Of a DNA stretch of 64,000 nt, positions 10,951 to 44,930 are shown piece by piece. The stretch is from positions 85,405 through 149,404 of the forward strand of contig UICE01000005.1 in the NCBI GenBank assembly GCA_900471815.1, given 5' to 3'. How positions within the stretch are numbered: the stretch's first letter is position 1; each line of letters starts with the position of its first letter. The notes beneath the pieces are model-generated. The model did no database searches, was not told the origin of the DNA, and saw only the letters and a program-made list of their open reading frames with translations. Made by a program: the position numbers and the translations under genes. This DNA comes from Hyphomicrobiales bacterium. Its GTDB lineage: Bacteria > Pseudomonadota > Alphaproteobacteria > Rhizobiales > Rhizobiaceae.

Positions 10951-11170
10951 GAATGGAACTGAACCGCAGACCTATAGATTACTGCTGCGTACAAACAGGA
11001 AAGTGATCAGGAACCCTTCGTTTGAAAATGCCGATAATAAACAAATTTCGAGCATTTTTGATTGTAGCTTAAAAGTCTACAATCCACCTCGGTGCTTCAT
11101 TTCATACCGATAGGGAGCCAAACAAACGACTGCTTCGCGCCTTCATTTCAGCCATTGGCGACGCACTTGT
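10951..11170 (+). repeat. Dispersed non-coding repeat R, copy 1
   Basis: Shares with copies at 17771 and 39633: a left part ending in CTGCTGCGTACAAACAGG, the core TTTGAAAATGCCGATAA, a dyad ATTGTAG-N9-CTACAAT (11061-11083) and, with the copy at 39633, the right block CGACTGCTTCGCGCCTTC (11127-11144). The core also occurs inverted upstream of the recombinase at 59731. No coding potential was found here. Together with the unassigned bases 10885-10950 and 11171-11412 it fills the gap between the oxidoreductase and EEP genes. Confidence 0.75.
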
Positions 11171-11412
11171 TATCCCAAAACCGGTCGTTCAGCAAAGTCA
11201 CTGTAAATGTCGGTGATAGAAGTGGAAAGTGGACCGTCTGCGTTTGCTTGCTAATTTGCAGAAACTGTCGTTCGGCAAAGGGCTCAATGTGGCCACCAAG
11301 TCCTGAGCCCTGGGTATGATATAGCTGTGACGATAAGATAGAGAGAATAACGGGACAGGACGAATTGATTCTCCAAGTCCCTTTAGACATGTCATGCCGG
11401 GAACAGGTTGAA

Positions 11413-12213
11413 ATGAGAATCATGAGTCTAAATGGCTGGGGCGGTAAACTGCATGAGCCGTTGATATCGTATCTTCAGTCCGACCAGCCTGACGTCCTTT
11501 GCCTGCAAGAGGTGGTTCATAGCCCGGAGACCGAGAAAGATTGGCTCACCTATCGGGATGAGGACCACATCTTGCCTCAACGCGCGAATTTCTTCCGCGA
11601 GGTTGCTGCGGCTTTGCCCGATCATGCGGCCCTATTTTGTCCGGCAGCGCAAGGTGTGCTCTGGGATGGCGAGAAGGCGGTTCCCTCGCAATGGGGACTG
11701 GCCACGTTCGTTCATCGTTCTCTGCCGATCACGGCGCAAGCACAAGGGTTCGTGCATAAGTCGTTTTCTCCTCACGGATATGGCGATCACCCAAGGTCGC
11801 GGTGCGCCCATGCGATCCGCATCTATGACTACACAAGGGAACGGGCGATATGTATCGGACACATGCATGGACTGCGCGATCTCGGCGGAAAAATGGATAC
11901 TCCCGAAAGACGTGTCCAAGCCGAAAGGCTCGCGGACCTGATGAAGCAAGTCGCGGAGCCGGACGATCCGCTAATCGTGTGCGGGGATTTTAACATTAAG
12001 CCGGGAAGCGAGACGTTCGCCGTGCTGGCCCAAATCGGTCTGATGGACCTTGTCACGACCGGAGGGTTCGAAGGAACGCGAAGCTCGTACTATAGGAAAC
12101 CAGGCAAGTTTGCCGACTACATGCTTGTGAATCAGCACGTCTCTATTAAGCATTTCACGGTGGTGACCGAACCAGAGGTGTCAGACCACTGCCCGCTTGT
12201 TCTTGAGATCTGA
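11413..12213 (+). CDS. Endonuclease/exonuclease/phosphatase-fold hydrolase
   Basis: A 266-residue EEP-superfamily (DNase I-like) metal-dependent phosphodiesterase. Motifs appear in order: RIMSLNGWGGK (Asn), LCLQEVV (metal-binding Glu), GHMHG, CGDFNIKPG (Asp/Asn) and VSDHCPLVLEI (terminal Asp-His). The catalytic set is complete. No signal peptide is visible. The frame is open back to a TTG at 11365, but the family motif begins right after the ATG at 11413, which follows GGGAACAGG. It stands alone, bounded by repeats R1 and B1, so it looks like an accessory cargo. The substrate (nucleic acid, phospholipid or inositol phosphate) cannot be told. Confidence 0.87.
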   Translation: MRIMSLNGWGGKLHEPLISYLQSDQPDVLCLQEVVHSPETEKDWLTYRDEDHILPQRANFFREVAAALPDHAALFCPAAQGVLWDGEKAVPSQWGLATFVHRSLPITAQAQGFVHKSFSPHGYGDHPRSRCAHAIRIYDYTRERAICIGHMHGLRDLGGKMDTPERRVQAERLADLMKQVAEPDDPLIVCGDFNIKPGSETFAVLAQIGLMDLVTTGGFEGTRSSYYRKPGKFADYMLVNQHVSIKHFTVVTEPEVSDHCPLVLEI

Positions 12214-12516
12214 CGATGTCGAGGGTCCACTCACTGTAAAATCAGAACCTAGCTGTTACGAACATGGATCGTTGTTTCACCCTCAATGTCTGCAGCCAGA
12301 TCAAGACAACCGGACTAGTCGCCCTTCGCGTAATCTCCGAAGTTCTCGACCGACGTCCGGCCAACCGACATAGTCCCGGCGATGGTGGGACGTATAAAGA
12401 TCCCCATATTAATCTGCTTCTACGTTTAAGACGTAGTTTCCACCAATGCACTTTGCGCCCAAGTATCGCAGTAATCTAAGTGGATTGACGATGCCATTTT
12501 GGATGCCGGAAGCTAC

Positions 12517-12700
12517 CAGTCCGCAACCGCCCCATCTCAGTCCTCCCAAGGCGCTAGCTCAGTGATTGCTCAGGAGCTGCAAGACTGGGGGGCATCATGC
12601 GAACCTGGCTGAACTAACAAGTACCAGAGATAAGCTCCGACATGCGTGGACTCATGAAAAGTTAAGTTTGGTTTCTCCCGCCTTGAACGGAATCAAACCA
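12517..12700 (+). repeat. Dispersed non-coding repeat B, copy 1
   Basis: Begins CAGTCCGCAACCGCCCCATC and ends near CCGCCTTGAACGGAA. It aligns along about 180 bp with copies at 33069 and 44752: CAGTCC...CATCTC, a central CTAGCTC.GTGATTG, GACTCATGAAAAGTTAA and the terminal CTTGAA hairpin. There is no open reading frame of note. The flanks 12214-12516 and 12701-12800 show nothing recognisable. Confidence 0.65.
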
Positions 12701-12800
12701 TCGGCCTTCGAAGCTTGTCTCCTAAGCCATTCATAATCATCGATACTCAGAAATGCCACCTAACGGCTACGCCGAACAACTGAGCCGGACAATCAGATGC

Positions 12801-13586
12801 TTAATACTCTGCTGGCATAGCATATACTTCTGCAGCCGGATCCGCGAGGAATGAGCGCACCGTCGGTGGTAGGTGGCGCGACGTTAATGGCAAAGGGCCA
12901 CAGCGCGCAAGAAGTTCGCGTAAGTCTGGCTCGACGCCCACATAGCGCCAGATCATCCGTGAGGCATAAGGGAGGTTTTCCCTTCGCCAGGAAATTCCCA
13001 TTGTTGTTCCGCGCAAATAGACGCGCTGGTACTGATCGAAGGGCAGGAGGATCGTCTGAGACAACATGGAGTTCGGGCCGACGACACGCTCCGCAATGAA
13101 GATCCGGTTCCGATAGAAGGCCGCCAAGCCCACATATTTCGAAAACTGCTGGATGCCGTTTCCAGGGTCCCGCAGACGTTCCATTGACTTGACATGTACC
13201 AGCCCCCTCTGCTCGATAAGGCGGCTGCACGAGCAGACGACCATTCCAGGCCAAGACGGCGAGCGATGATAGGTCTGAAAATAGCCGATATGGCGCCGCA
13301 GCGCCGTCAGATTTCCGGGGAACCCCTTTAATAGCTCTGAATTTTCATCGAGGCCGAGGGTCGGTTTCCGAAGGCGCTCGCGAAAATGCTTGGGAGCGAG
13401 ACCAAAGTCGGCTGTGTCGAGATCGAAATAGTTGGCGATACGCGCGAGATTATGGGCAGACGGTCTCGTCTGGCCGTTAATGTATCGATTGAATTGTTGC
13501 CGGTTGATATTTATCGCACGGCACAGTTGCGAAATGGAACGCTGTGTTGCACAGGCAATTTTGAGGTTCTCGACCAGATAAGGCAT
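12801..13586 (-). CDS. HTH (XRE-type) transcriptional regulator
   Basis: A 261-residue protein with an N-terminal helix-turn-helix (QRSISQLCRAININRQQFNRYINGQTRPS, residues about 14-42), where the recognition helix and the 'NRYINGQTRPS' end are typical of Cro/C1-type regulators. The C-terminal 200 residues are a ligand- or partner-domain I do not recognise. GGAG lies 6 nt before the ATG at 13586; an ATG four codons upstream is less well placed. It is divergent from the binding protein at 13709, 122 bp away, so it likely controls that gene and the hydrolase. Confidence 0.78.
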   Translation of the reverse strand: MPYLVENLKIACATQRSISQLCRAININRQQFNRYINGQTRPSAHNLARIANYFDLDTADFGLAPKHFRERLRKPTLGLDENSELLKGFPGNLTALRRHIGYFQTYHRSPSWPGMVVCSCSRLIEQRGLVHVKSMERLRDPGNGIQQFSKYVGLAAFYRNRIFIAERVVGPNSMLSQTILLPFDQYQRVYLRGTTMGISWRRENLPYASRMIWRYVGVEPDLRELLARCGPLPLTSRHLPPTVRSFLADPAAEVYAMPAEY

Positions 13587-13708
13587 CAGCCACTCCATTT
13601 CAGAAAGCCCAGCGTAAACTTGCTTAAAGATGCGTCAAGTCGCGAAATTGCGTGAGCCGACCCGACCTCTACATTCCCCGCTACAAAATAGAAAACGAGG
13701 GAACTGCG

Positions 13709-15289
13709 ATGACGCATTCAAAGGATCAATCTTCACAGCTGAAAATCGGCCGCCGCCACTTCCTCGGCGGTGCCGTCGCGCTTGGCGCTTTACCGAGCCT
13801 TGCCTCGGGGCTGCTGCTGCCGCGTGATGCCCGCGCCCAGGAAATGAAACGCGGCGGCCATCTGAAGCTCGGTCTCAAGGGTGGCGCTAGCAGCGATGCG
13901 CTCGACCCGGCAACATACAGCGCCTCAGTATTGTTCGTCATCGGCCGCCTGTGGGGCGATACGCTCGTCGAGTCCGATCCCAAGACAGGCGCACCCGTGC
14001 CGTCGCTGGCTTCTTCCTGGACGCCGTCAGCGGATGCATCTGTCTGGACCTTCAAGATCAGGAACGATGTGCAGTTCCACGACGGCAGCAAGATGACCGT
14101 CGCCGATATCGTCGCGACACTGAAACGGCATGCGGACAAAAATTCGCAGTCGGGGGCTCTCGGTCTGCTAACTTCGATCGCGGGTATTGAAGAAAAAGCG
14201 GGCGATCTTGTGCTGACACTTTCAGAAGGCAATGCGGATCTCCCGCTCCTTCTCACCGATTACCACCTTATCATCCAGCCGAAAGGGGGGATCGACAAGC
14301 CTGCGGCCGCCATCGGCACCGGCCCTTATATTCTGAAAACTTTCCAACCCGGTGTTCGCGCAACCTTCGAGAAGAACTCCAAGGATTGGCACTCTGAGCG
14401 CGGCTTTGTGGACAGCGTCGAAATACTCGTCATCAACGACAACACCGCCCGTATTACAGCGCTTGCCTCCGGCCAGGTCCATTTCGTCAACACTATTGAC
14501 CCGAAAACGGTCCCGATGCTGCAGCGCGCACCCAATGTCGAAATTGTCCGAAATGCCGGCAAGGGCTTCTACTGCTTTTTGATGCATTGCGATACGGCGC
14601 CTTTTGATAACAATGATTTGCGGCTTGCGTTGAAATATGCCATCGATCGCCAGTCGATCCTGGATAAAATTCTAGGCGGCTATGGATCAATTGGTAACGA
14701 CTATCCGGTCAATTCCAACTACGCCCTCGCGCCTACCGATATCGAGCAGCGCCCATATGATCCAGACAAGGCCGCCTTCCACTTCAAAAAATCGGGGCTC
14801 GACCGTCCGGTTCAATTGCTCACCTCCGACGCAGCCTTTCCTGGCGCCGTGGATGCGGCGAGCCTTTTCCAGCAAAGCGCGCGCAAGGCCGGCATTACGA
14901 TCGACGTCAAGCGTGAACCGGAAGACGGCTACTGGTCAAGTGTCTGGAACAAGCAGCCTTTCTGCGCATCCTTCTGGGGTGGCCGCCCGACCCAGGATTC
15001 GCGCTACTCCACCTCCTATCTGTCGAGCGCCGATTGGAACGATACGCGTTTCAAGCACCCTGACTTCGACAAATTGGTACTGCAGGCCCGGTCTGAGCTC
15101 GATGAAGCCAAGCGCAAGGTGCTTTATCGACAGCTGGCTCTGATGGTGCGGGACGATGGCGGTCTGATCCTGCCCGTTTTTAACGACTACATCATGGCCT
15201 CTTCGAAAACGCTAAAGGGATATGTCGATGATATCGGCAATGATATGTCCAATGGCTATATCGGCAGCCGTGTGTGGTTCAACACCTAA
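13709..15289 (+). CDS. Tat-exported peptide-type ABC substrate-binding protein
   Basis: A 526-residue solute-binding protein of family 5 (dipeptide/oligopeptide/nickel type). The N-terminus has a twin-arginine leader IGRRHFLGGAVALGALP followed by DARAQ cleavage. The mature part begins MKRGGHLKLG and holds the family signature DPATYSASVLFVIGRLWGDTL and WTFKIRNDVQFHDG. GAGGGAA precedes the ATG. No permease or ATPase genes are adjacent, so it is an orphan binding protein that would have to use a transporter elsewhere. The hydrolase follows after 22 bp, pointing to uptake plus cleavage of one compound class. Confidence 0.92.
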   Translation: MTHSKDQSSQLKIGRRHFLGGAVALGALPSLASGLLLPRDARAQEMKRGGHLKLGLKGGASSDALDPATYSASVLFVIGRLWGDTLVESDPKTGAPVPSLASSWTPSADASVWTFKIRNDVQFHDGSKMTVADIVATLKRHADKNSQSGALGLLTSIAGIEEKAGDLVLTLSEGNADLPLLLTDYHLIIQPKGGIDKPAAAIGTGPYILKTFQPGVRATFEKNSKDWHSERGFVDSVEILVINDNTARITALASGQVHFVNTIDPKTVPMLQRAPNVEIVRNAGKGFYCFLMHCDTAPFDNNDLRLALKYAIDRQSILDKILGGYGSIGNDYPVNSNYALAPTDIEQRPYDPDKAAFHFKKSGLDRPVQLLTSDAAFPGAVDAASLFQQSARKAGITIDVKREPEDGYWSSVWNKQPFCASFWGGRPTQDSRYSTSYLSSADWNDTRFKHPDFDKLVLQARSELDEAKRKVLYRQLALMVRDDGGLILPVFNDYIMASSKTLKGYVDDIGNDMSNGYIGSRVWFNT

Positions 15290-15311
15290 ACCTTTTCGGG
15301 AATATGTGATC

Positions 15312-17315
15312 ATGACCGAGCGCAGTTTCACCACCATCGAAAATCAGTGGATCACCCTGAAGGACGGGACGCGGCTTGCCGCACGCATCTGGATGCCGCA
15401 CGGTGCGGAGAGCGACCCCGTGCCTGCGGTTTTCGAGTTTCTGCCCTACCGCAAGCGCGATGGAACGAGCCCGCGTGATGAATCCACCTATCCGGTCTTT
15501 GCCGCTGCTGGCATTGCTGGCGTTCGCGTTGATATACGAGGCTCCGGCGAATCCAGCGGCGTCATCGATGGAGAATATACCGAGCTCGAGCTCGCCAATG
15601 CCCGCGAGCTGATCGGCTGGATCGCCGCACAGCCTTGGTCGAACGGTTCTGTTGGCATGATGGGCATTTCCTGGGGCGGCTTCAACTGCCTGCAGGTCGC
15701 GGCTCTGAAGCCCCCGGCGCTGAAGGCAGTGATATCGATCGCCTCTACGGTCGACCGCTATAATGACGACATCCACTACAAGAACGGCTGCCACCTCTCC
15801 GCCCAGCTTTCCTGGGCGGCAACCATGCTCGGCTACCAATCGCGTTCACCAGATCCGGCAATCGTCGGTGACGACTGGCGAGATATGTGGCTGCAGCGAC
15901 TGAAGCAGGAACCCTTCTTCATGGAGGAATGGCTGGAGCATCAGAGCCGCGATGATTATTGGCGGCATGGTTCGATTTGCGAGAATTTCGCCGAATTCGA
16001 CGTGCCGGCCATGGTCATTGCCGGCTGGGCAGACGGCTATCGCAACACGCCGCTGAAGGCGGTCGAAGGTCTCGGCGACAAGGCGAAAGCGCTCATTGGC
16101 CCATGGGTTCACAAATATCCGCATTTGGCCTGGCCAAAGCCACGCGCCGATTTCCATGGTGAGGCCATCGCCTGGTGGAACCGTTGGCTGCGCGGCGAAG
16201 AAAACGGTGCGGAAAACCTGCCGTCGGTGCGCGCCTATATTCTCGATGCCATCAAACCTGCAACACGACGCGATTTCGATCCTGGCTTCTGGATCGCAAA
16301 ACGAAAATGGCAGCAGCCTGACTTGCAGTGCTTCTATGTCGAGCAGTTCGGCACCTTGACGGAGGGCATGCCGATCCCGCACGCGCCGGAGCACCCAGTC
16401 TATCTGCGCTCGCCGCTCGACACGGGCACCGCCTCGGGCGAGTGGTTTACACTGAAGCCGGATGCAGAACTGGCGATCGATCAGCGCGTCGACGAAGCTG
16501 GATCGCTGACCTTTCAGACCGCGCCGCTGACCGAAGATCATGATTATCTCGGCCGTCCGCTCGTGACGCTGGCGCTCAGATGCGATACGGAAACCACCAA
16601 TCTCTGCGCAAGACTTGTCGATATCCATCCGGATGGTACGGCAACCCGCGTCACTTTCGGCCTGCTCAACCTCGCCCATCGCAACGGCAATGTCACGCCC
16701 GAACCTATGAGCAAGGGTGAACGCACGACTGTGAACCTGGTTCTTGATGCCTGCGGCTACCGTTTCCGCAAGGGGCACCGCCTTCGTCTGTCACTGTCGA
16801 CTGCCTATTGGCCTATGGTTCTGCCACCTCCCCAAGATCCGGGTCTGACGATCGACATTACCTCTATCTGTCTTGGCCTGCCCCTGCTTGGGGCGCATGA
16901 GCTCATCGACGTGAAACAGCCTGACAATCCCGATCCACTACCGAAATATATTGAGCAATCGCCGTCGTTAACGAAGCGGCAGGTGGTACGCGATCTCTCA
17001 GCCGGCATTACCCGTTATGAAATCCAAGAGGATACCGGCCTTTTCGAGCATCCTGTCACTGGCCTGTCTACGCGGCAGCTGCGTGAGGAAACCTGGTCGA
17101 TCGCGCCGGATGACCCGCTGTCGATGTCCGGCATCTCGACCTGGACCTGCGACATGCAGCGCCCCGGTTGGTTCGTTCGGACGGTCGCAACCTCATCCAT
17201 AGCCTGCACGGAAAAGGATTGGATCATCAGCGCCTCGGTCATTGCCTATGAAGGCGAAACGGAGATCTTCCAGAAGATGTTCGAGGAGAAGCGTATCGCG
17301 CGAGATCTGATGTAG
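15312..17315 (+). CDS. CocE/NonD-family (S15-type) hydrolase
   Basis: A 667-residue alpha/beta hydrolase. Catalytic elements: DIRGSGESSG (oxyanion/cap region), nucleophile elbow GISWGGFN (Ser), Asp in AGWADGYRNTP and His in GPWVHKYPH. The second half is the beta-sandwich domain of X-Pro dipeptidyl peptidases and cocaine esterase (ending around RLSLSTAYWPM). No export signal is evident, so it is cytoplasmic. The ATG at 15312 follows GGGA and is 22 bp after the binding-protein gene. Its likely role is hydrolysing an imported peptide, amide or ester. Confidence 0.9.
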   Translation: MTERSFTTIENQWITLKDGTRLAARIWMPHGAESDPVPAVFEFLPYRKRDGTSPRDESTYPVFAAAGIAGVRVDIRGSGESSGVIDGEYTELELANARELIGWIAAQPWSNGSVGMMGISWGGFNCLQVAALKPPALKAVISIASTVDRYNDDIHYKNGCHLSAQLSWAATMLGYQSRSPDPAIVGDDWRDMWLQRLKQEPFFMEEWLEHQSRDDYWRHGSICENFAEFDVPAMVIAGWADGYRNTPLKAVEGLGDKAKALIGPWVHKYPHLAWPKPRADFHGEAIAWWNRWLRGEENGAENLPSVRAYILDAIKPATRRDFDPGFWIAKRKWQQPDLQCFYVEQFGTLTEGMPIPHAPEHPVYLRSPLDTGTASGEWFTLKPDAELAIDQRVDEAGSLTFQTAPLTEDHDYLGRPLVTLALRCDTETTNLCARLVDIHPDGTATRVTFGLLNLAHRNGNVTPEPMSKGERTTVNLVLDACGYRFRKGHRLRLSLSTAYWPMVLPPPQDPGLTIDITSICLGLPLLGAHELIDVKQPDNPDPLPKYIEQSPSLTKRQVVRDLSAGITRYEIQEDTGLFEHPVTGLSTRQLREETWSIAPDDPLSMSGISTWTCDMQRPGWFVRTVATSSIACTEKDWIISASVIAYEGETEIFQKMFEEKRIARDLM

Positions 17316-17770
17316 GTCAGCGCGAACCGAGCGATGAGATAGCAATTTCTCCCCAAGCACAACTCAGCTGGTTGAACGATGCATTTTGCAAAGCAATCGC
17401 TTCGGCGACGTTTCAAGCCCTACCGACAATCTCGTTGTCGATAGTATGGCGACAGTCAATTGAGAGCGGTGGCATGGCCTGTGTTTGACATCGCCATCAA
17501 CTATCTGTTCCTCTATCCGACCAAGATTGGACTGATCTCATAGCGCTGGCCCACGCAGCAATATAGCGATATCGACAATCAGCTCCAAACTTGGGCACAA
17601 GACTTCGTCTCCAGCACCCCAACGGACACCCTGCCCCTTCGTAAGGACGTCAGACTTGGGATTACATCATCGATCTGCAGAGCGCACGCCTTTCAGACAA
17701 TGGAGGTCAACGCGACTGACTTGGCTTACGCTTTTAGCGTTTAGGGTTCAAATCACCCGCCGACCCGCGA
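17316..17770. other. Intergenic stretch, nothing recognised
   Basis: About 450 bp without a convincing gene, RNA or terminator. A TTCAAATC near 17746 recalls a tRNA T-loop, but no tRNA fold can be drawn. Repeat R2 starts just to the right. Confidence 0.5.
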
Positions 17771-18160
17771 TCTTGATTAGAGTCGAACCCTCGACCTACA
17801 GATTACTGTTGCGTATAAATAGGGAAGCTGTCAGCAACCCTTCCTTTGAAAATGCCGATAATAGGCGATTTTTCACCGATTTCGATTGTAGCGCAGATGT
17901 CTACAATGCCCATTAAAGTCTTGTATTGAAATGACTATCCAATGACTGCGTTGTATCGAGCGGTGGAGCGCGTTCCCAGCAAATTTTGCGTAGTTCGCAT
18001 GAAATCCCAGCATCTTTTTGGATGCCGATGCCCTCTGCCAATCTGGATCGTACTTCTATGCCCCCACCTTGGGAAGGCGAGGACACCAAGCACCTCGACG
18101 GTTCAGGAATTTAAGCACGCGCGTCGATGCGATGGCTGCTTTGCACGCCCATGCACGAAC
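17771..18160 (+). repeat. Dispersed non-coding repeat R, copy 2
   Basis: Aligns with the copy at 39633 almost throughout: CGACCTACAGATTACTG, the core CCTTTGAAAATGCCGATAA, TTTCGATTGTAG (dyad 17885-17907 with CTACAAT), CCCATTAAAGT, GAAATGA-TATCCA-TGAC and GATGCGATGGCTGCTT at the right. The 9-nt dyad spacer differs between copies while the 7-bp arms are kept. Confidence 0.75.
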
Positions 18161-18270
18161 CCGCTTCGCGGGAGGGCGAGCGCAGTGAGGTTGGCGTGAT
18201 TATCTGAAGTTCTAGGCACGCCGTTGGTATTGCCTGACGATGGAGTTCCTTTCAACAAGAGGAACTCTCC

Positions 18271-18636
18271 ATGGCCAGCTTCTCCAACGATGCCCCGATC
18301 ACACCGCTTCGCCAGCGCATGCGAGAAGATATGGTGATGCGGGGTCTGGGATCCCATACGCAGCAGGACTACATTCGTCATGTCCGGCGCTTCGCCACGT
18401 TTCTTGGGCGCACGCCTGACACCGCAATGGTCGAAGACATACGGCGCTTCCAGTTGTATCAGCATGAGAACGGTGTGGGTCCGGCGACGATCAACAGCAC
18501 GGTTTCGGCGTTGCGCTTTCTGTTCACGGTGACGCTGAAGCGGCGGGATCTGGCGCGAGCGCTGGTGATAACCCGCAATCCGCGCAAGTTACCTTCGCTG
18601 TTCAAACCTAAACCACCCCTCCTGCGTGCCGCGTGA
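18271..18636 (+). pseudogene. Truncated tyrosine recombinase (N-terminal SAM-like domain), IS91-associated type
   Basis: About 110 residues match the N-terminal core-binding domain of phage-integrase-type recombinases that accompany IS91-like elements: LRQRMREDMVMRGLGSHTQQ, YIRHVRRFATFLGR and INSTVSALRFLFTVTLKR. After ITRNPRKLPS the sequence departs from the family and stops, so the catalytic domain (R-H-R-Y) is absent. The preceding GC-rich inverted segment CCCGCTTCGCGGG (18161-18173) resembles an element end. It lies at the left border of the organosulfur cluster and could mark the insertion that delivered it. Confidence 0.72.
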
Positions 18637-18804
18637 ACCCCAGAGAGTTACCGGTCTCGCCGCTTTCATCCTGAAAATAGAATTCCGGCTTAGGAAACAA
18701 ATTAGCAAATCATTTCTTCTTGGATGTGGGCCACCAATTTATTGTTCGTCTCCACTAACGCCGCGACGTATGGAATATGCGGTCAACTCACAAGGATAAT
18801 GCCG

Positions 18805-19773: not shown

Positions 19774-19788
19774 CGACAAGACGGGTTC

Positions 19789-20625: not shown

Positions 20626-20628
20626 GAC

Positions 20629-21375: not shown

Positions 21376-21391
21376 ACCGATAGGATTGACG

Positions 21392-23952: not shown

Positions 23953-24034
23953 GACAGGCCGGTCTGAAAACCCGCCTGCTCTCATTGCGGCGCCCAAATC
24001 GTCAACATTGCTCGGCCGCTAGTATATATTCGCC

Positions 24035-25281: not shown

Positions 25282-25305
25282 TGCGGTATCTCCTCATTAA
25301 GGGGT

Positions 25306-28653: not shown

Positions 28654-28655
28654 CC

Positions 28656-31680: not shown

Positions 31681-31707
31681 GAGTTCATAGCTCCAAAATA
31701 AAATTGC

Positions 31708-32628: not shown

Positions 32629-32781
32629 AGCTCAGCAACTGAGTTGGCAGCGACGCTTCGCCGGGCCGGTGCTGCCCATGGCGAACACGAAAAGCGGACG
32701 GGAGGTGAATACGATGTCAATTGGCCTGACTGGTATGCTGAATACATCGTACAAGAACAGGCCGGGGGGACGCTCCCTCTG
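32629..32781 (+). pseudogene. Fragment of a small conserved protein (DWPDWYA motif)
   Basis: About 50 residues read SATELAATLRRAGAAHGEHE then NWPDWYAEYIVQEQAGGTLP, a block seen as small proteins or tails of glyoxalase-like proteins in many bacteria. The surrounding reading frame lacks a fitting start and diverges afterwards, so this is a remnant. The rest of 32293-33068 shows nothing recognisable. Confidence 0.4.
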
Positions 32782-33068
32782 TGGCGTGGCCGTAACTGCT
32801 TTGAGGGCGAATTTGACCCAATACGTCTCGCCGACAAACATTGTTTGGCCGTCCAGATCGAGCAGGGTATCAAGACTCGTATCACGCGCACTTATGCCAC
32901 CCTGTCATCATTTAGTGATAACCGTAGCAAGTTCAATATCTCATGGCATTCCTTAGGAGGCATTATGCTCAAGCAGTTGTACCCGCAAAGTTAGAATGCA
33001 TCTGTTTCTGCAAGGTTGGAATGTCACACTCCCAGGGTCTGGGATTGATTGCGATTAGCAAAAGTACA

Positions 33069-33215
33069 CAGTCCGCGATCGGCTCTATCTCGGTCATTCA
33101 ATGGCACTGGTCAGCAATCACTAGCACCGCAAACTTGTTTAGCTCAACTATCAAGGAGCAGATCGATGGCTCATTGGAAAGCTAACTTTTAATCCCACCG
33201 TCTTGAAGGGATCTG
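33069..33215 (+). repeat. Dispersed non-coding repeat B, copy 2
   Basis: Aligns with the copies at 12517 and 44752: CAGTCCGCGATCGGCTCTAT, CTCGGTCATTCAATGGCAC, GATGGCTCATTGGAAAGCTAA and a closing CGTCTTGAAGGGA. It is shorter in the middle than the other two. It lies just right of the organosulfur cluster. Confidence 0.62.
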
Positions 33216-33267
33216 GACTGAAAGCCATCGTCTGAGCACGCAGACAGGCCTCCTCCAGACACCAGGT

Positions 33268-34458: not shown

Positions 34459-34518
34459 TCCGGTGATTTGGAGATAAAACCACCCTGGAACGGGTGGCGC
34501 TTTTTCGATGCGGATAGG

Positions 34519-37141: not shown

Positions 37142-38153
37142 GTTCATTCCCCTTTGTATTCATTTTCATTTTTGCAATAGCAATGCTGGTATCACTGCCA
37201 TCAGTATCGAGCGGAAAAATTACCTCCGGCAAAAGTCGCTGCGGGAGAATCCCTTGGGTATAAAGTTCGTCGACAAAGCCGTTTATCATCGCGTGATTTT
37301 CGGCAAAGCCGCTCGCATCCCATCCGGTCGGCAGATCGGAGGAGCTCCGGAGAAGCTCATCGAACATCCATGGCGTTGTCTCGGCATATTTACGACGCTT
37401 GCTCAGCCAGACACGTTGGGATTCATCGATTAGGTTACTAAGCTCGGCGATGATCCATGGATGCTCAGCCACGATATCTGCTTTGATGCCGATAAGGTGC
37501 ATGCCGGGCACATAGCCTACCTCGCCGAAATAACGGCGTTCAGCGCCACGAAAATCAGCAAGCACCTGCCGAAACGGGGAACTATCAGAAAAAAAGCCAT
37601 CCGGCATAAAGGGCGTGAAGATCGCATCGAGTTCGCCGTCCACCAGCAGGTCGACCATGGGTTTTTCGCCGGGTGTAGCCTCAATCCTTCCGGGGCGGCC
37701 AAAGCCATCGAGACGATCGGTAATTGGATGAGCCGCTGTCAGCCTGCCCGCGTACCACATCGCATCTTCAACACCTACGCCTTCCCTGCGAAGTGCTGCC
37801 CGCGTCCATGTATTGCCGGAGTCACGCCAGCCGGTGACGCCGATACGTTTACCGGCAAGATCAGCCAGTTTCCAAATTGAACTGTTTTTAGTCGTGATGA
37901 TGCAGCGGTGCCGGAAACCTCGCATGATGAAATTCGGAATGCCGACTATGCTCTTATCGCCCTCAAAGCATAGTTGAGTATAACGGCTGAAAGACACTTC
38001 GGCAGCGTCATAGGCATCGCTCTTTCCCACGTGAGGGATCAATGTGCCGACACGATCAACCTTGATTTCCAGTCTTGGTGAGGTCACGTCCCCAAGAACT
38101 AGAGGGGTCATATAATCCCAATCCCGGAGAGCAAGACGGAGGGTAATCGGCAT
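37131..38153 (-). CDS. 4,5-dihydroxyphthalate-decarboxylase-like / SBP-fold protein
   Basis: A 340-residue cytoplasmic protein (no signal peptide) resembling 4,5-dihydroxyphthalate decarboxylase, a family with a periplasmic-binding-protein fold. Matching blocks: LRLALRDWDYMTPLVLGDV, DAAEVSFSRYTQLCFEGD, FRHRCIITTKNSSIWKLADL and AGKRIGVTGWRDSGNTWTRA. It opens a five-gene minus-strand operon with the transporter and M20 hydrolase, divergent from the MocR regulator. It may decarboxylate or otherwise process the imported compound. Homologues also include thiaminase-like binding proteins, so enzymatic function is uncertain. Confidence 0.7.
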   Translation of the reverse strand: MPITLRLALRDWDYMTPLVLGDVTSPRLEIKVDRVGTLIPHVGKSDAYDAAEVSFSRYTQLCFEGDKSIVGIPNFIMRGFRHRCIITTKNSSIWKLADLAGKRIGVTGWRDSGNTWTRAALRREGVGVEDAMWYAGRLTAAHPITDRLDGFGRPGRIEATPGEKPMVDLLVDGELDAIFTPFMPDGFFSDSSPFRQVLADFRGAERRYFGEVGYVPGMHLIGIKADIVAEHPWIIAELSNLIDESQRVWLSKRRKYAETTPWMFDELLRSSSDLPTGWDASGFAENHAMINGFVDELYTQGILPQRLLPEVIFPLDTDGSDTSIAIAKMKMNTKGNEHVA

Positions 38154-38190
38154 AGACAGTCACTCACAAATTATTCTTATCCACCTCACG

Positions 38191-38242
38191 TTAAATGTTC
38201 AAATTCAGGTGATCAAATGTTATTACGTTATTGAACATTTAA
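38191..38242. promoter_or_regulatory. Probable MocR operator in divergent promoter
   Basis: Two perfect 12-bp inverted copies, TTAAATGTTCAA (38191-38202) and TTGAACATTTAA (38231-38242), lie 40 bp apart centre to centre, about four helical turns. A third partial copy, TCAAATGTTA, lies between them (38213-38222). The site sits between the divergent operon (start 38153) and the MocR gene (start 38257), as expected for autoregulation by a dimeric GntR-type protein. Confidence 0.72.
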
Positions 38243-38256
38243 AAATGGGTGATGAA

Positions 38257-39585
38257 ATGAATGAAGCGCGGGACGCCGACTGGTTTGCTCAAAAGCTGAA
38301 AGACCGGACAATTCGCGGTATTGCAATAGAAACCAGCGCATTAATCCGTGGGGGTGCATTGCCCGTGGGAACCAAGCTCCCGGCCATCCGCGATCTTGCT
38401 TTTGCGCTCGGAATTAGCCCTGCAACCATTTCGCATGCATGGCATGAGTTACGTCGGCAAAAGATTATCAGCGGGCGAGGCCGCAATGGGACATGGGTCA
38501 GCGGTGACCGTTTTATGGCGCAGCCGGCGCGTCTGGCGAGTGTTGGCAATTACGGAAAGGGCGCGTTGGATCTCACTGCCGCCGTGCCGGATGTCACGCT
38601 GCTGCCCCAACTTGCCCAGGCCATGGCTTATGGTGCTTCGGCTGAAAATCTTAATAGCTATGAGCGCAGCCGCATCCTTCCCGAACTGGAAATCGAAGCA
38701 AGAAAGACCTGGCCCTATGAGCCGGAAGCCTTCCTTGCAACAAATGGTGGCTACAATGCTGTTTATACACTGATACACGCTCTGGTCCTTCCGGGCGCCA
38801 GCGTAGCGGTAGAAGACCCCACCGGGATGCGCTTGCTGGATATTCTGGAAGATCGCGGTGTGCGTATCATTCCCGTGACGTGCGATAATGAGGGCCCAAC
38901 ACCTTCATCGCTGGAGGAAGCGCTGAAATTTCGGCCCGTCGCCTTCCTGTTTCAGCCACGTGTTCATTCCGTCACAGGCCAAAGCGTCAGTCCGCAGCGC
39001 ATGGAGCGCTTGGCCGAGATTTTGCGTGAGACGGATACATTGATTGTTGAAGACGATGGCGTTGCCGATATTAGCGAGTCCCCGAGGCATTCGCTTGGCC
39101 GTTTTTATCCCGACCGGGTCATCCACATTTTGTCTTATTCAAAAACGCATGGCCCTGATCTGCGCCTGGCTGTGCTTTCAAGTTCGCGGGCGATCGTTGA
39201 ACAGATACAGTCTTATCGCAGCTTTAGCGCAGGCTGGACAAGCCGTATCCTGCAGGCAGCCGCGGCTTGGCTGCTGCGCGATGAAGCAACACACGAAACA
39301 TTGCGCCAGGCGCGGGCAATCTACCAGACAAGACGCGGCAACCTTGTTGCGGCATTGCGGGAAAGAAATGTCAAAGCAGCTTCTGGCGGAGGCTTATGCG
39401 CCTGGGTTTGCGTTTCGTCCGAGCCCTTTGCCATGGTGACAATGGCGGCGCGCGGCATAGCTGTTCATCCCGGAGCCAAATTTTCAATTCTCCCCAGCAG
39501 CCACCTGCGGGTGGCTACGGCCACTTTGTCAAATCGCTGCAAGGAGGTGGCCGATGCCATTGCTCTGGCGGCAGTGCATCGTTGA
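38257..39585 (+). CDS. MocR-type (GntR HTH + aminotransferase fold) regulator
   Basis: A 442-residue regulator. The N-terminal winged helix holds LPAIRDLAFALGISPATISHAWHELRRQ; the rest is a fold-type I aminotransferase-like domain with ATNGGYNAVYTLIHALVLPG, EDDGVADI and the PLP-lysine segment SYSKTHGPDLRLAV. Such regulators sense PLP or amino-compound aldimines. GGTGA precedes the ATG at 38257. Upstream in-frame ATGs at 38209 and 38245 would run across or abut the operator. It likely controls the divergent amino-acid-type transport operon and itself. Confidence 0.9.
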   Translation: MNEARDADWFAQKLKDRTIRGIAIETSALIRGGALPVGTKLPAIRDLAFALGISPATISHAWHELRRQKIISGRGRNGTWVSGDRFMAQPARLASVGNYGKGALDLTAAVPDVTLLPQLAQAMAYGASAENLNSYERSRILPELEIEARKTWPYEPEAFLATNGGYNAVYTLIHALVLPGASVAVEDPTGMRLLDILEDRGVRIIPVTCDNEGPTPSSLEEALKFRPVAFLFQPRVHSVTGQSVSPQRMERLAEILRETDTLIVEDDGVADISESPRHSLGRFYPDRVIHILSYSKTHGPDLRLAVLSSSRAIVEQIQSYRSFSAGWTSRILQAAAAWLLRDEATHETLRQARAIYQTRRGNLVAALRERNVKAASGGGLCAWVCVSSEPFAMVTMAARGIAVHPGAKFSILPSSHLRVATATLSNRCKEVADAIALAAVHR

Positions 39586-39632
39586 ATAATTTCACGTTTT
39601 CGTTTGCAAGGGGCAGGCCAAAGTAGATACGC

Positions 39633-39960
39633 CGTGATTGAAGTTGAATCCACTACCTACAGTTTTCTGCTGCGTACAAACAGGGAAGTTGTGAGAAAAC
39701 GTTCCTTTGAAAATGCCGATAAGAGGCCAATTTTTCCTATTTCGATTGTAGCGTCGATGTCTACAATTCCCATTAAAGTTTGTAACGAAATGATTATCCA
39801 CTGACCGCTTTGTACTGAGAGGGCGACTGTGTTCCGGAAAGTTTGGCGCAAATTCGCGTGGTATATAAGCATTTTTGTGCAAACTGTCTAAGCATATTGA
39901 GGCTCAAGAACCTAGGCACGTGTGCTGATGCGACGACTGCTTCGCGCCTTCGTCTCGTCA
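39633..39960 (+). repeat. Dispersed non-coding repeat R, copy 3
   Basis: Full-length copy: CTACCTACAG-TTTCTGCTGCGTA, core CCTTTGAAAATGCCGATAA, dyad ATTGTAG-N9-CTACAAT (39745-39767), CCCATTAAAGTTTGTA, and the right block CGACTGCTTCGCGCCTTC (39934-39951), identical to 11127-11144. No gene is seen in it or in 39961-40107. Confidence 0.75.
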
Positions 39961-40107
39961 TAGGGTCCACTCTAACGGCATCTCCAATGAGGACATGGAG
40001 CGGTCTGAGGTGGCTGCATGTTTGTATCAACAGCGGTCCTTCCGCGTGAGAATGGAGGCGGGAACAGAATCCGCCGCCATTTCATTGACGTCACCTGCAT
40101 GGGAAGC

Positions 40108-40520
40108 TTAGATATCAGAGAGAACAGTCAGATCACCCATCCGCCAGACATTGTCGACCGTGTTGCGGGTGATGACCCAGACGTCGCCGCTTCTAGCCAG
40201 CTCGACGTCGTAGCGGTTCTTCATGAGGTAATAACGCGAGGGATCGCTGCGAGGAACGTGCTGGGCTTCCACGAGCACGTCCATGCGTGCCGTGTCACCA
40301 TTGATGGTCACACGTGGATTGCTGACGGAGTGGGTGGTGTCCAGTGTACCAAGCGACGTCAACAGGGCCGTGACAATGAAATCCCCGCCTTCAATGACTG
40401 GATATTCGAACCCGGCCTTGGCGGCGGCCGGTCGGAAGTCCGAGATCGCGTTTTCTGCGAGCGACGACGAGAGAAGCTCCTTGTCTCGGAGGTCGATACC
40501 TGCTGCGAAGCGATACGCAG
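40108..40520 (-). pseudogene. NTF2-like (SnoaL-type) protein, N-terminally truncated
   Basis: An open frame from about 40520 to the stop at 40108 reads AYRFAAGIDLRDKELLSSLA, DFRPAAAKAGFEYPVIEGG, LGTLDTTHSVSNPRVTINGD and ARMDVLVEAQHVPRSDPSRY: a SnoaL_4/NTF2-like fold protein. The first 20-30 residues and any start upstream are missing, because the sequence abuts the NTPase fragment near 40515-40525. The only internal ATG (40362) would give a half-domain. I take it as a gene cut at an insertion or deletion junction. Confidence 0.68.
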
Positions 40521-43152
40521 TCGCCGCCGGCCACGTGGGGCGCCCCGAGGATGCGCCGCACCTCAGCGCCCTTGTCAGGTTTATCGCGCTGCTGCAGCCG
40601 GTCGCCCTTAACGACGACGAAACCTGGTCGGCCTATGCTACCTTTGCCAACCTGCCACTTCATGAGATTAAGCGGCTGCTTGACGCCTTGGCGCGTGCCG
40701 GCGTGCTGTTCCGGCGCGGCCAAACCTATCGTCTGTCACCCGACGTTCTTGCAGACTATCTGATTGAAGATCGCTGCGTGGCTTTCGACGGCAGTTCGAC
40801 CGGCTATGCTGAGCAGGTCTTCGACATCATTGATGACCGACTGAAGGGTCAGCTGCTGATCAACCTCGCGCGTCTCGACTGGCGTCGCAAGAATGGCGAC
40901 GTGGGAGAGAGCCGCCTGCTGGACGGGGTATGGGCGAAGCTGAACCCCTCGAATGAGCCATGGGACCCACAACTCGATGCAGTTGCCGACATCGCATTTT
41001 ACCAGCCTCGGCGTTGCCTGGACTTCGTCGAGAGGAAAGTCGCCGAAGACAACATCACGCCCAAGCTGGCAAGAATCTGCAAGTATGCCGCCTACAACCT
41101 AGATCACCTTGAGCGTGCCCTGGAGCTGTTGTGGGAACTTGGCCGGGATGACACTACGCTTCAGAACTCGAACACCGAACATGCCATCCGTATCTTAAAG
41201 GAACTGACGGAGCCCGAGCCCAAGAAGCCGCTGGCCTACATTGAGGGCGTGGTCGATTTTGGGCTGCAGCTTGCAAAGGAGAAGGATGCTTGGTCCCATC
41301 ACGCCAACCCGCTCGATTTCCTGTCGGGCGTGCTTTGCACGGAAGGCCACGAGACGGAGCCGGACAGACGGCAGTTGATTTTTCGCCCCTTCTTCATCAA
41401 TCCCGAAGGAATTCGCCCGTTACGGGAACGCGTGCTGGCGCTGATTTTTTTCTTCTCACCAACACAGACCCGGCAGTCGGGGCGAAGGCCGCCCAGGCGC
41501 TTCAGATCGCCATAAGATTTCCCATGGGCATGATGGGTGCTGACCCTGGCCCAATGAACCGCAAGCAGTGGACGGCGCAATTCGCCGAGACCATGCGGCA
41601 GTTGCTTGCGTTGGTTAGGGCCAATCCCCTTCATTCCGCGGTTCAGCTTGAGCTTGAGCGGGCGTTGGCGTGGCAGGCGGGGCATGGCCCGGCAGAGCTG
41701 TCAAAACTGGCGCACGAGATTATTGATGCCTTCTCCATGACGCTTGAGGCGAGAACGGATCGCGCTCTCGCGGATGGCTACGGCATGCATGCGCGGCTCG
41801 TGTCGCGGGCAGATGGGGAAGCCACGTGGAAGTCCTCCCTTGATACCCTCACGCTTGAGCTGATCGACAAATTTCCTGACAAAGGGGAACTGGTCGCCTT
41901 TGTGGGGGCCCGGTTGCGCGACCTCAGCCGGGGATCGCGACTGGATAACGGAAGCGCCTATGTCCTTGTCGACAAGCTGCTGGCCGCTGACACGGAGCTC
42001 TGCCGCACGATCATTGCCGAAGCGGAGAAAGACCCGGAAGGTATGATCGCAAACTACGCCGCCGTGGCCCTCAGTTACCTGTTTGGTGCTGACGCGACAG
42101 CCTTTCGCGAGGTCGTAGCCCGCTTTGCAGACTCGTCCCCAGAGCCGCTCCAAGCTATCGCTGCGAACGCGGTGGGCTTTCGCGTGTATGACCAGCAAAA
42201 CACCGAACCTAGTGATATCGCCATCGTACGGCAACTGCTGGCGCACAACAGCGAAAACATCACGCTGAGAGCTTTGAGGGCTATACGGCAACTCGCCAAA
42301 AATAACCCCGAAGCAGCCAAGGACCTCATTCTGGACCTGAACATAACGTCCGAACGCATGGCGGATGATGTTGCGGTGCTGTTCGCGTTCCAGAACGAAA
42401 TCCCGCTGGACCTTCTCTCAGATGATGAACTTGGCCGCCTGTTGGACAAGTTTGCCGACCTGCCTAAACTCGAAGGGCACTGGGTACAGATCCTTTTCAC
42501 CGCGCTCAGCCGCAGGATTCCACACCGGGTGCTGAGGTTCTTTATCGCCCGTCTTGAGGCCGCAGCTGGCCACCGAGAGGATGATGAGGTCTTCAGGGCG
42601 GTCAATCACGGTCCATGGCTGCAAAGCCGTCTGGCGTTCAGGCAGACGCCATATACACGCGACCTCATCATGGAATTCACGAACTGGTGGAGGGGTGCCA
42701 GCAACGACGTGTGGTTGCTGGACTATAGCGCGCGGACGGCGTTTGAGGCCATGTTTGCCCCCTTCGATGACGAGCTTGTTTCGATCCTCGACGAGTGGTT
42801 GGAGACGGCTCAACTGGACGACTTCAAATATATCGCTGCGATTCTGCGGGAAGCCGACAGCTCCTTCATCTTCCGTTACCCGGCCTTCTTGCTCCGGCTT
42901 TTCGAGCAGGCGCGGCAGTTCGGTGTAAAAACGAAGAAAATGGTGTTGACGGAACTGTTCTGCTCGGCGATTGCCGGGCCGCGCAGCGGGACAGCAGGTG
43001 AGCCGTTCCCCCAGGATCTTAACATGAAGAAAGCGGCGGAAGAGGCCTTGGTCAAGTGTCCGCCGAATTCGCCGCTGCGCCAGCTTTATGAGCAGGTCAT
43101 CAGGCACGCCGATGCCGAGATACGGCGTCAGAGCGAATGGGAGGACGACTAG
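40520..43152 (+). pseudogene. Large STAND/NACHT-like NTPase, 5'-truncated and frameshifted
   Basis: A long coding stretch without its N-terminal ATPase domain. It starts abruptly with a winged-helix-like region (ETWSAYATFANLPLHEIKRL, GQTYRLSPDVLADYLIEDR), as follows the P-loop domain in STAND-type NTPases, and continues as about 800 residues of helical HEAT/TPR-like repeats to DAEIRRQSEWEDD. At 41444-41452 (ATTTTTTTC) the frame changes by -1; the heptamer T TTT TTC is a classical slippery site, but a homopolymer indel explains it as well. No P-loop is present, so the protein cannot function as an NTPase here. The nuclease and membrane-protein genes follow. Family assignment rests on architecture only. 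Confidence 0.62.
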
Positions 43153-43154
43153 GC

Positions 43155-43334
43155 GTGGCACGCGTACCCCGCCCCGGCAAGCACTGCAGTCTGCGCTTCG
43201 GCGGTGGCGAAAAGCTTGTCATCCAAGCGGACGGGGCCCTAGCTGTTGGTGCGTTGGTAGCGATCGTCGCCCTGATTTTTGTGTTTAGCGGAGGCACCGA
43301 ATTGCTGCTGTGGCTCAACGGCAGTTCGTCGTAA
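43155..43334 (+). CDS. Small single-span membrane protein
   Basis: A 59-residue protein starting with GTG 2 bp after the NTPase stop. Residues 1-28 are polar (RVPRPGKHCSLRFGGGEKL); one hydrophobic helix follows (ALAVGALVAIVALIFVF), then a short tail. GGGAGG lies about 10 nt upstream. I recognise no family. Tight spacing suggests co-expression with the NTPase and nuclease; short membrane proteins often act as effectors or anchors in defence modules (inference). Confidence 0.5.
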   Translation: MARVPRPGKHCSLRFGGGEKLVIQADGALAVGALVAIVALIFVFSGGTELLLWLNGSSS

Positions 43335-43427
43335 TAAAGCGGAACCGCGCGTGACCGTCTCGATTTGCTGCTTCTCTTCAGCCGTCTCGGGCGGCTGATA
43401 CGCTGGTTTCTAATGATGGGCGCTATT

Positions 43428-43976
43428 ATGGCAGAACACGATCCTCGCGCAATTCTTTCGGCATTCGCCGAAGCTCTTGCAGACCTCCTACAAGATGCCG
43501 ATCTTGTGCGAGCGGGGCCGGAGGAAATCTCCATCACCACTGAACTCGCGATGAAGATAGACCGTTACTTTACCGGTTGGCGGGCCAGTCCGGAATGGAC
43601 ACGGCGCGAGGCGGAAGAGAAAAAGATTGCCTGGAATGACGAAGCCGGCGCGCTAAGACTTAAGAAAATCCGACCCGACATTATCGTACATCATATGCAC
43701 AAGCAGGACGAAAACTTGCTGGTGGTGGAAGCCAAACGGGTTCAGAATACGTCATTCGAGGACGATATCCGCAAGCTCACCCTCATGACGCTCGAACACA
43801 GCGTCCATCCCGAATATCACTATGGCCACGTCGTTGGTGTCCAGCTGGTGATAGACCTGCCGAACAGGTTTGTCGCCCGGCATGACGTTTACCGATTGGG
43901 TTCCATTAACGCCGAGTTGACAACATGGTTCGCCACCGCTCTCGCTGCGGCTATTCAGCGTAGGACCCCCGCTTAA
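43428..43976 (+). CDS. PD-(D/E)XK nuclease-like protein
   Basis: About 182 residues with the PD-(D/E)XK core: IRPDIIVHH (Asp84), then LLVVEAKRV with Glu101 and Lys103, spaced 17 residues apart as in restriction-type nucleases, and an N-terminal helix carrying a Glu. The fold prediction is from motif only. Start choice is uncertain: ATG 43428 is used, with ATG 43413/43416 and TTG 43365 in frame. It is the third gene after the NTPase fragment and membrane protein, and I infer that it belongs to the same module. It appears intact, so it may still be active. Confidence 0.65.
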   Translation: MAEHDPRAILSAFAEALADLLQDADLVRAGPEEISITTELAMKIDRYFTGWRASPEWTRREAEEKKIAWNDEAGALRLKKIRPDIIVHHMHKQDENLLVVEAKRVQNTSFEDDIRKLTLMTLEHSVHPEYHYGHVVGVQLVIDLPNRFVARHDVYRLGSINAELTTWFATALAAAIQRRTPA

Positions 43977-44062
43977 GAGATGGCAAGGGGGACAATGGCG
44001 AGTGTGTTATTCCAACCGTGCCGCGACGGAAGCAGATACGTCCCAGCGAAGAGGAGTAGAAT

Positions 44063-44690
44063 ATGGCTCCCCTTACATTCAGCGCGCAGGGCTTCGTTTT
44101 TCAAGACGGTATGAATATCCTACTCAAAAGCTACTCGGCGGCTCAGGATGCCTTGAATGAGGTTATAGACCGGCAGCGTGATGACGCGTTTGCATACCAG
44201 CAAGAACTCGAAATGGGCGGCAATGGATCGGCGAGCGCGACGAAGACGGCGCGGTTATTTGGGACCAAGAGCAGATCCTCTCTCATCGCGTAGAGGAAGC
44301 CGAAGGAGCGTCTGCCGCACTCCGGAAGGCGTTCGTCATCAGCTTCTACCATCGTTGGGAGCTGTCGGCGCTCAAGTGGGTCGGGAAGGATCGATTGGAT
44401 CACCTCGAGCTTGAGGCGGAAGTTAAAGCGTTGGGGTACCCCATCGACCCTGCGCTCAATGATGTGCGGCTGTTGGTCAACACCTTGAAGCACGACAACT
44501 CGAAGTGGGGCTTGCAGTTGTGAGAACGACGTCAAGGCGCATTCTTCACCGGCTTCACTCCCGACGCGAAGAACATCAGCTGGTACGATAGCATCCGGCT
44601 CAAAACGATGATGTTGAGATGATCTGGAATATCGTCGCGTCGTCAGGTCCGACAATAAAGACGGTACGGTCCAGCGAGCCCAATCCATAA
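44063..44690 (+). pseudogene. HEPN-like protein broken by two frameshifts and one stop
   Basis: Conceptual repair gives about 205 residues: MAPLTFSAQGFVFQDGMNIL, a helical LLKSYSAAQDALNEVIDRQR, a shift near 44212 to QWIGERDEDGAVIWDQEQIL, SFYHRWELSALKWVGKDRLD, and LLVNTLKHDNSKWGLQL. An in-frame TGA at 44521-44523 is followed by FFTGFTPDAKNISWYDSIRL, then a shift near 44604 to DDVEMIWNIVASSGP and a stop at 44690. The NTLKH block resembles the helix end of HEPN-fold proteins. GAGGAG precedes the ATG. Clearly decayed. HEPN proteins are common in toxin-antitoxin and defence loci. Confidence 0.6.
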
Positions 44691-44751
44691 GCTTTGCATT
44701 TGCCGTCCCGGACGAACGGCAGCAATCACGCTTGGACCAGCCGAAAGCCGC

Positions 44752-44930
44752 CAGTCCACTCCCGGCCCCATCTCGGTCAGTCAAGGGCACTAGCTCCGTG
44801 ATTGTTTAAGGGAAGGTGCATAATGCGTATTTGGCTAAGCTAACGGTGCCAGTGATTAGCTCGAACTAATGACTGATGGCTCATGAGAAAGCTAATTTTG
44901 ACTTCCCTTCGCCTTGAAGGGAAATGAAAC
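44752..44930 (+). repeat. Dispersed non-coding repeat B, copy 3
   Basis: Best-preserved copy: CAGTCCACTCCCGGCCCCAT, CTCGGTCAGTCAAGGGCACT, AGCTCCGTGATTG, GATGGCTCATGAGAAAGCTA and the closing hairpin TTCCCTTCGCCTTGAAGGGA. It lies right of the HEPN-like pseudogene. 44931-45191 holds no gene, but 45148-45180 resembles the motif region at 47350. Confidence 0.65.

Follow-up and report, generated by a model that had tools for sequence, protein, structure and literature searches.

What keeps two families of non-coding repeats, here named R and B, in one and the same orientation along a stretch of bacterial DNA? The question is raised by a window of 64,000 nucleotides (positions 85405-149404 of the 276,704-bp contig C10, UICE01000005.1) from a Hyphomicrobiales bacterium whose 4.6-Mb genome is assembled in 19 contigs and whose genus mates among the search matches are Phyllobacterium. 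A preliminary description of the window had read R and B as recombination sites or as the two termini of an undescribed family of cargo-carrying elements. The idea of recombination sites with a meaningful polarity has held for R and probably for B; that of two termini of one element family has not. As discussed below, R is probably the crossover site of a site-specific recombination system that resides mostly on secondary replicons, and the enzyme would most likely be a plasmid serine recombinase of the RinQ/y4cG type. The copies in the window are composed of arms, a 17-bp R core and a second motif, core', as follows.

10946..11095, plus strand: R1, with core' (10946-10965), left arm, R core (11021-11037) and right arm
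12510..12699, plus strand: B1, a B arm ending in core' (12679-12698); left edge of an exchanged 5.2-kb block
17769..17930, plus strand: R2, with diverged core' (17769-17789) and R core (17845-17861); right edge of the exchanged block
33060..33220, plus strand: B2, a B arm and diverged core' (33199-33218)
39630..39960, plus strand: R3, with diverged core' at its left (39630-39650), R core (39706-39722) and a long right arm
44748..44930, plus strand: B3, a B arm and core' (44910-44929)

This order and common strand, noted already in the preliminary description, were borne out by alignments of R1-R3 and of B1-B3. R1-R3 can be aligned over 137 bp (10947-11083, 17771-17907 and 39632-39768), with R2 and R3 77% and 62% identical to R1. 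A core-level survey of 2.9 Mb yielded 118 matches, 112 of which retained at least 13 of the 17 core letters and represented 111 unique sites. Among these, the core, TTTGAAAATGCCGATAA (positions 0-16), is nearly invariant. The left arm is conserved, with AA at -9/-8, TTC at -4 to -2 and a word resembling TGTTCAA or TGTACAA near -30; the right arm is weaker and reaches about +64, with alignment continuing further rightward in some copies. RNAalifold, run on one strand of R, found no consensus base pairs. A coding role for R was discarded on reading the frames, as the short open frame that runs through the core of R2 is absent from R1 and R3.

The presence of R and B was profiled in 20 Phyllobacterium genomes at a cut-off of E <= 0.01, and 251 matches to R were detected in 17 of them. 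The window genome has ten R matches at this cut-off, all located on contigs C6 and C10, one being the inverted site P described further on. When 84,980 species genomes were scanned for a pattern that combines the R core with a right-arm word, the 17 stretches returned were all from Phyllobacterium. Two R copies, on G000:C6 near 94330 and on G000:C10 near 23390, have right flanks that are 96% identical; both contain NN at the same place, from an assembly join or from masking.

The role of R emerges from the places where homology between loci ends. Junction events were scored for flanks of at least 84% identity and at least 300 bp. At 109 usable R sites, homology stopped in 42 events (22 left, 20 right), passed through in 2 and ended elsewhere in 4; for 6,000 random anchors the corresponding numbers were 134, 639 and 356. 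Counted by site, the ratio of stops to pass-throughs was 27:2 at R versus 111:539 at random anchors (Fisher p 6.5e-18), and these figures are the safer ones because events are not independent, one pair being countable from both sides. A control with looser limits and 1,500 anchors gave 58 stops and 2 pass-throughs at R versus 45 and 234 at the anchors. In each of the 42 stops, the partner carries an R core no more than 90 bp from the break.

Thirty-three R pairs have a flank (at least 84% identity and at least 150 bp) that reaches the core; 18 share the right flank only, 13 the left only, and 2 both sides. Left-sharing pairs are 92% identical at -15..-2 and 58% at +17..+30, right-sharing pairs 55% and 90%, and unrelated R pairs, which represent the family background, 57% and 55%. 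This step profile comprises 22 of the 31 one-sided pairs (11 of 13 left, 11 of 18 right) and omits seven right pairs whose matches of 173-242 bp possibly reflect R-family similarity only. Nine chosen pairs were also aligned. Six are R pairs that share one flank, with homology starting or ending at the core, one is a pair of P sites, and two (NZ_CP104972 25118/842003 and NZ_CP017941 187189/275332) break elsewhere. The two NZ_CP017941 copies agree almost completely along a stretch of about 275 bp that runs from core' across the R core and ends near +190, between flanks that are unrelated on both sides. Some blocks form chains: the right block of NZ_CP104972:16784 recurs at three other loci, each with a different left flank, and the left block of L063:8013 likewise has three further loci, the four right flanks being mutually non-matching. 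R breakpoints also occur at loci without an adjoining B. R is read as the crossover point because homology stops at the core and identity falls to the family background across it. As the aligned flanks demonstrate, exchange at R falls inside the 17-bp core, and each arm remains joined to the block on its own side.

A clear exchange within the window concerns the following segment.

12679..17870, plus strand: exchanged block from the core' of B1 to the core of R2, with a helix-turn-helix regulator, a family-5 solute-binding protein and an S15 peptidase

The block is 97.4% identical over 5.2 kb to P. sophorae (G011:C5, taken as NZ_PGGM01000014; 198,107 bp). On the left the block ends in the core' of B1, on the right no more than ten bases from the R2 core, and the DNA outside is unrelated apart from B-like and R-like arms. 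In the second documented whole-block case, a 1.06-kb segment of NZ_CP104972 with an R core (16784) at one end and a core' (17819) at the other is 95.9% identical to G008:C10, taken as P. myrsinacearum, with differing flanks beyond the block. Since a B-to-R block and an R-to-core' block have both moved, both kinds of interval are exchangeable. Judged from these two cases, segments between neighbouring sites of either type are exchanged blocks. Among 211 segments compared, 1 had both ends at sites and 21 had one end there; the P. sophorae block was split over loci in this comparison and is outside that count. The preliminary description had regarded each R-to-B interval as a unit, with R at its left and B at its right boundary, and had assigned other operons to the B-to-R intervals. 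The block from B1 to R2 is one of the latter, and together with the R breakpoints that lack B it contradicts those boundaries; the 1.06-kb R-to-core' block fits them.

B1-B3 can be aligned with gaps and were missed by an ungapped finder. A profile built from the three copies recovers them at E 4e-43 or lower, values that express self-recovery, and the next match on C10 and C6 has an E of 0.013. B is rarer than R, with 41 matches in 14 of the 20 genomes and an R:B ratio of about 6 to 1 (251 vs 41). Both this ratio and the R breakpoints without B indicate that the two repeats occur independently as far as pairing is concerned; their polarity is still shared. Strong B copies of the window genome are restricted to C10, and a weaker, partial one is located on C9. 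The motif core' (about CGCCTTGAAnGGAATCGAACC) opens R1-R3 on the left and closes B1-B3 on the right, the copies of R2, R3 and B2 being diverged, and in NZ_CP017941 it joins one B directly to an R. Homology stops at core' in the window, where the right flank of B1 is common to P. sophorae from core' onward; further stops involve NZ_CP104972 753892 with NZ_CP017941 582607, NZ_CP104972 17819 with L256, and L263 4405. Core' looks like a second exchange point, on thinner evidence than R, and these stops suggest that B is probably a recombination site too.

According to RNA structure prediction, the folding of B is weak. By eye, core' resembles the reverse complement of a tRNA T-arm, and this is kept as a resemblance only; no tRNA was found by ARAGORN in the window or in 29 loci, or by a permissive Rfam scan of 12 loci. 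Core'-like matches on the opposite strand are present at NZ_CP017941 57394 and 58248 and at NZ_CP104972 936344. The match at 57394 lies within a region 97.7% identical between NZ_CP017941 and NZ_CP104972, with no recombinase annotated adjoining it in NZ_CP017941.

The polarity of the sites extends far beyond the window. Among the matches listed, to which the polarity counts given here refer, 29 contigs hold two or more counted R copies; of these 122 copies, 117 share the majority strand of their contig, and 5 of the contigs are mixed. In 20,000 random strand draws the mean was 82.6 and the maximum 99. All 32 B copies on contigs with R share the R majority strand, and the remaining 9 of the 41 sit on contigs without counted R. 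Up to 15 counted R copies were recorded on a single Phyllobacterium replicon. The 990-kb circle NZ_CP104972 has 14 counted R, which are found to either side of repC (302 kb) and all share a strand. On C1, the largest contig of G018 and probably the chromosome, R is split 3 and 1 by strand. The counts derive in part from 74 profile rows, comprising 59 counted R, 9 P-type rows and 6 omitted fragments (G019:C5:1329276, G018:C1:3468007, G019:C3:65052, G019:C3:280240, G018:C3:14690 and G019:C2:272305), of which at least G019:C3:280240 and G019:C2:272305 run against the R strand; the fragment G011:C1:199860 was also omitted.

R and B polarity is a property of whole contigs or replicons and not of local units. 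The constant polarity pointed out in the preliminary description is far beyond chance and meaningful, and is not tied to the three units proposed there. The strict alternation of R and B proved to be local: the order on C10 is R R R R1 B1 R2 B2 R3 B3, and NZ_CP017941 has successive R copies without B, in addition to the B fused to an R. Nor is alternation improbable in itself, as three R and three B alternate with a chance of 2 in 20 by simple counting. Replication-strand bias was rejected for NZ_CP104972, whose cumulative GC skew does not turn at repC, and may still apply to NZ_CP017941, where the sole inverted full R copy lies beyond repABC. Near this inverted copy (NZ_CP017941 581584-582607) a core' match is inverted too, as if a small segment had turned, which fits a local inversion.

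The candidate enzyme is coded near the right end of the window, behind a site that faces the other way.

59649..59704, minus strand: P, an inverted R-type site with its core at 59653-59669 (17/17 letters), 61 bp upstream of the recombinase gene
59731..60642, plus strand: serine recombinase of 303 amino acids (PF00239), y4cG/RinQ-like, YARVST present
60631..61044, minus strand: PIN-domain (VapC-like) gene adjoining the recombinase, as in NZ_CP017941

The best solved-structure matches of the recombinase are a DNA-invertase and the gamma-delta resolvase, and YARVST is presumably its catalytic serine motif. The homolog of plasmid pNGR234a, 64% identical to the Phyllobacterium recombinase, is one which we take to be y4cG; in the homolog search this name stood on another match. 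In five plasmids or contigs the P core precedes the gene start by 61-62 bp, with 17/17 letters in the window, NZ_CP104970 and NZ_CP104968 and 16/17 in NZ_CP017941 and NZ_CP017943. In NZ_CP017941 the gene is followed by vapBC and repABC; RepC was not found on contig C10. Among the matches listed, the P-type site faces against the R majority on 7 of 7 replicons or contigs that also have R, one of which (G019:C2) has a single R. These belong to 10 P-type rows, the others being two on G019:C4, not inverted, and one on a contig without R. Recombinase presence was scored across the Phyllobacterium genomes at E 1e-40, and the two genomes without it have no R at E <= 0.01. Outside the genus, the P sites upstream of the recombinase homologs of pNGR234a and M. 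ciceri align partially with the Phyllobacterium P, and related P sites were detected in Sinorhizobium, Rhizobium, Mesorhizobium and kin (125 places in 125 plasmid records, 33 in 33; E <= 0.01). We infer that a RinQ/y4cG-like recombinase acts on R.

Several observations weigh against this picture. P and R share the left arm and the core, and their right arms differ. The partial P-type matches on G019:C4 (529259 and 920297) are not inverted and have no adjoining recombinase match, and on two of the seven replicons or contigs with an inverted P-type site, G018:C3 and G019:C3, a recognised gene beside it is lacking. The recombinase is broken or fragmentary in the R-rich genomes G001, G004, G009, G011 and G017, on NZ_CP104972, where a remnant lies further from its P site, and on NZ_CP017943, where the gene is split; the arrays may accordingly be fossils or be served by another copy or enzyme. 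The R-free genome G010 carries a recombinase remnant. On plasmids of Phyllobacterium T1293 and 628 the gene is present but no P core precedes it (the best candidates have 11 and 10 of 17 letters), and the plasmid search gave zero R matches there; G007 and G013, whose gene coordinates match those of T1293 and 628, have 1 and 4 weak R matches. Events at core' are mixed, with 12 stops, 21 pass-throughs and 18 other ends in a set of 157 motif matches (150 usable), many of which are probably chance matches. Finally, among the 111 sites there is no case of A-R-x-R-B in one plasmid and A-R-B in another, which leaves clean excision or insertion between two R sites undocumented.

The mechanism proposed for these arrays starts from a maintenance function. 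In other rhizobial plasmids the related site, found once per plasmid, probably serves plasmid resolution or cointegration. In Phyllobacterium, the single site of such a resolvase-type recombinase would have multiplied to tens of copies per genome, giving rise to an array that shuffles in one direction. Integration of a circle with one site always leaves direct repeats, and it is direct repeats that excision removes; many rounds of both, together with plasmid fusion, would therefore build a same-facing array. A P in direct orientation would expose the recombinase gene to loss by excision, and the inverted P may be kept for the protection that it would give. B would represent a second type of site with its own core' and the same orientation, apparently an exchange point as well. 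The wider proposal, that Phyllobacterium megaplasmids are giant integron-like arrays in which a RinQ-type recombinase shuffles multi-gene blocks between plasmids and species, is one towards which the balance tips slightly.

The mosaics might also have been made by RecA-dependent homologous recombination, with R as an ordinary dispersed repeat and no dedicated recombinase at it. R copies are alike over about 100-300 bp, the core is their longest near-identical run, and recombination between direct repeats would likewise give integration, excision and a uniform polarity. Such an origin is nonetheless unlikely: the breaks fall at the 17-bp core, the arms on the unshared side show only background identity (about 55-60%), the near-invariance of the core over 111 sites suggests a selected function, and the same core recurs 61-62 bp upstream of the recombinase gene. 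It is quite unlikely that R is used, as in pdif plasmids, by another site-specific recombinase, either host XerCD or an unlinked tyrosine integrase, with P as a merely regulatory or fossil site. The arrays do persist where the RinQ-like gene is broken, and XerCD shuffling of pdif modules in plasmids is documented (PMC13141974). Against this, P combines the R core and left arm at a constant spacing before the recombinase gene in five plasmids or contigs, and part of P is recognisable upstream of the pNGR234a and M. ciceri homologs. The exact core pattern was moreover exclusive to Phyllobacterium in the genome-wide scan (17/17 stretches), whereas Xer is, to our knowledge, near universal.

Two further explanations concern the nature of the repeats themselves. 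If R marked the left and B the right end of a single family of cargo-carrying elements, the movement of the 1.06-kb block from R core to core' as a unit and the agreement of B with R polarity in 32 of 32 copies would be accounted for. This reading is very improbable and largely refuted already by R breaks at loci without B, by an exchanged block that runs from B1 to R2 and by the failure of alternation outside the window. Hardly probable at all is that R is a mobile miniature element whose insertion is strand-biased by replication or conjugative transfer. A uniform polarity and the NZ_CP017941 pair at 187189/275332, alike over about 275 bp between unrelated flanks, would suit such an element, but insertion predicts co-linear flanks on both sides and nearly all cases keep one flank and replace the other; in addition, the 14 counted R of NZ_CP104972 are one-stranded across both sides of repC (302 kb).

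As for the cargo, some gene assignments of the preliminary description were confirmed. The EEP enzyme between R1 and B1 has a PF03372 match, and the integrase to the right of R2 is indeed truncated.

18271..18636, plus strand: truncated tyrosine integrase with the N-terminal SAM-like domain only

Five open reading frames scanned in the region from 40 to 44.8 kb gave zero Pfam matches. Elsewhere, genes with PIN, reverse-transcriptase and ATP-binding domains and an S8 peptidase gene are clustered to the right of the R site of L060 (NZ_CP017943), possibly a block-borne defence cluster. Two adjacent genes annotated as tyrosine-type and site-specific integrase lie about 2 kb to the right of the R site of L064 (NZ_CP104970). 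The right block shared by NZ_CP017941 113607 and G019:C3 107011 seems, by eye, to hold the 3' end of a tRNA gene.

If exchange at R by the RinQ-type recombinase is confirmed, large rhizobial plasmids would assemble metabolic genes by site-specific exchange at an oriented array, beyond what transposons and homologous recombination provide, and a recombinase of the plasmid-maintenance type would have turned into a gene-shuffling machine. The model accounts for the contig-wide strand polarity of non-coding repeats, and R and core' sites give exact block borders that annotation misses. One recombinase gene and one site of about 100 bp would suffice to test its main step.

Among known systems, integrons and superintegrons have many same-facing sites, a differing site beside the recombinase gene, and modular cargo. 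The array of R resembles them in its one orientation (117/122 among the matches listed) and in the one differing site beside a recombinase gene. It differs in that the gene beside P codes for a PF00239 serine recombinase instead of an IntI-type tyrosine integrase, and in that the sites are spread over the whole replicon and the blocks reach several kilobases. Integron attC sites fold as a hairpin; for the one strand of R analysed, RNAalifold predicted no consensus base pairs. The pdif sites of Acinetobacter (PMC13141974) are short asymmetric plasmid sites with two 11-bp Xer sites and a 6-bp spacer; they alternate in orientation (C and D modules), and gene modules are shuffled between plasmids by XerCD with the crossover inside the site. 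R likewise shows crossover inside a short conserved site and module shuffling between plasmids (42 stops and 2 pass-throughs; step profile). In contrast to pdif, R sites share one orientation without C/D alternation, have extended arms, are likely served by a plasmid serine recombinase, and delimit blocks that may hold several genes. RinQ is a serine recombinase whose gene lies close to the repABC operon on pRetCFN42d of Rhizobium etli (Quintero et al. 2002, cited in PMC10194956) and is reported in PMC10194956 to be needed for incompatibility toward the R. etli symbiotic plasmid. The likeness of the Phyllobacterium enzyme to RinQ and res-type systems, at the family level, consists in an invertase/resolvase-family serine recombinase coded near repABC; unlike the one site per record of other rhizobial plasmids, up to 15 counted R occur on one Phyllobacterium replicon. 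The IntA attA/attD system of R. etli, also tied to large rhizobial plasmids, is reported to recombine one 23-bp site pair with an integrase (PMC4928290), whereas R forms an array. No published account of such an array appeared among the matches listed in a literature search conducted mostly without subscription papers. The Phyllobacterium system is thus akin to pdif modules or integrons but distinct from both, as it misses a defining feature of each.

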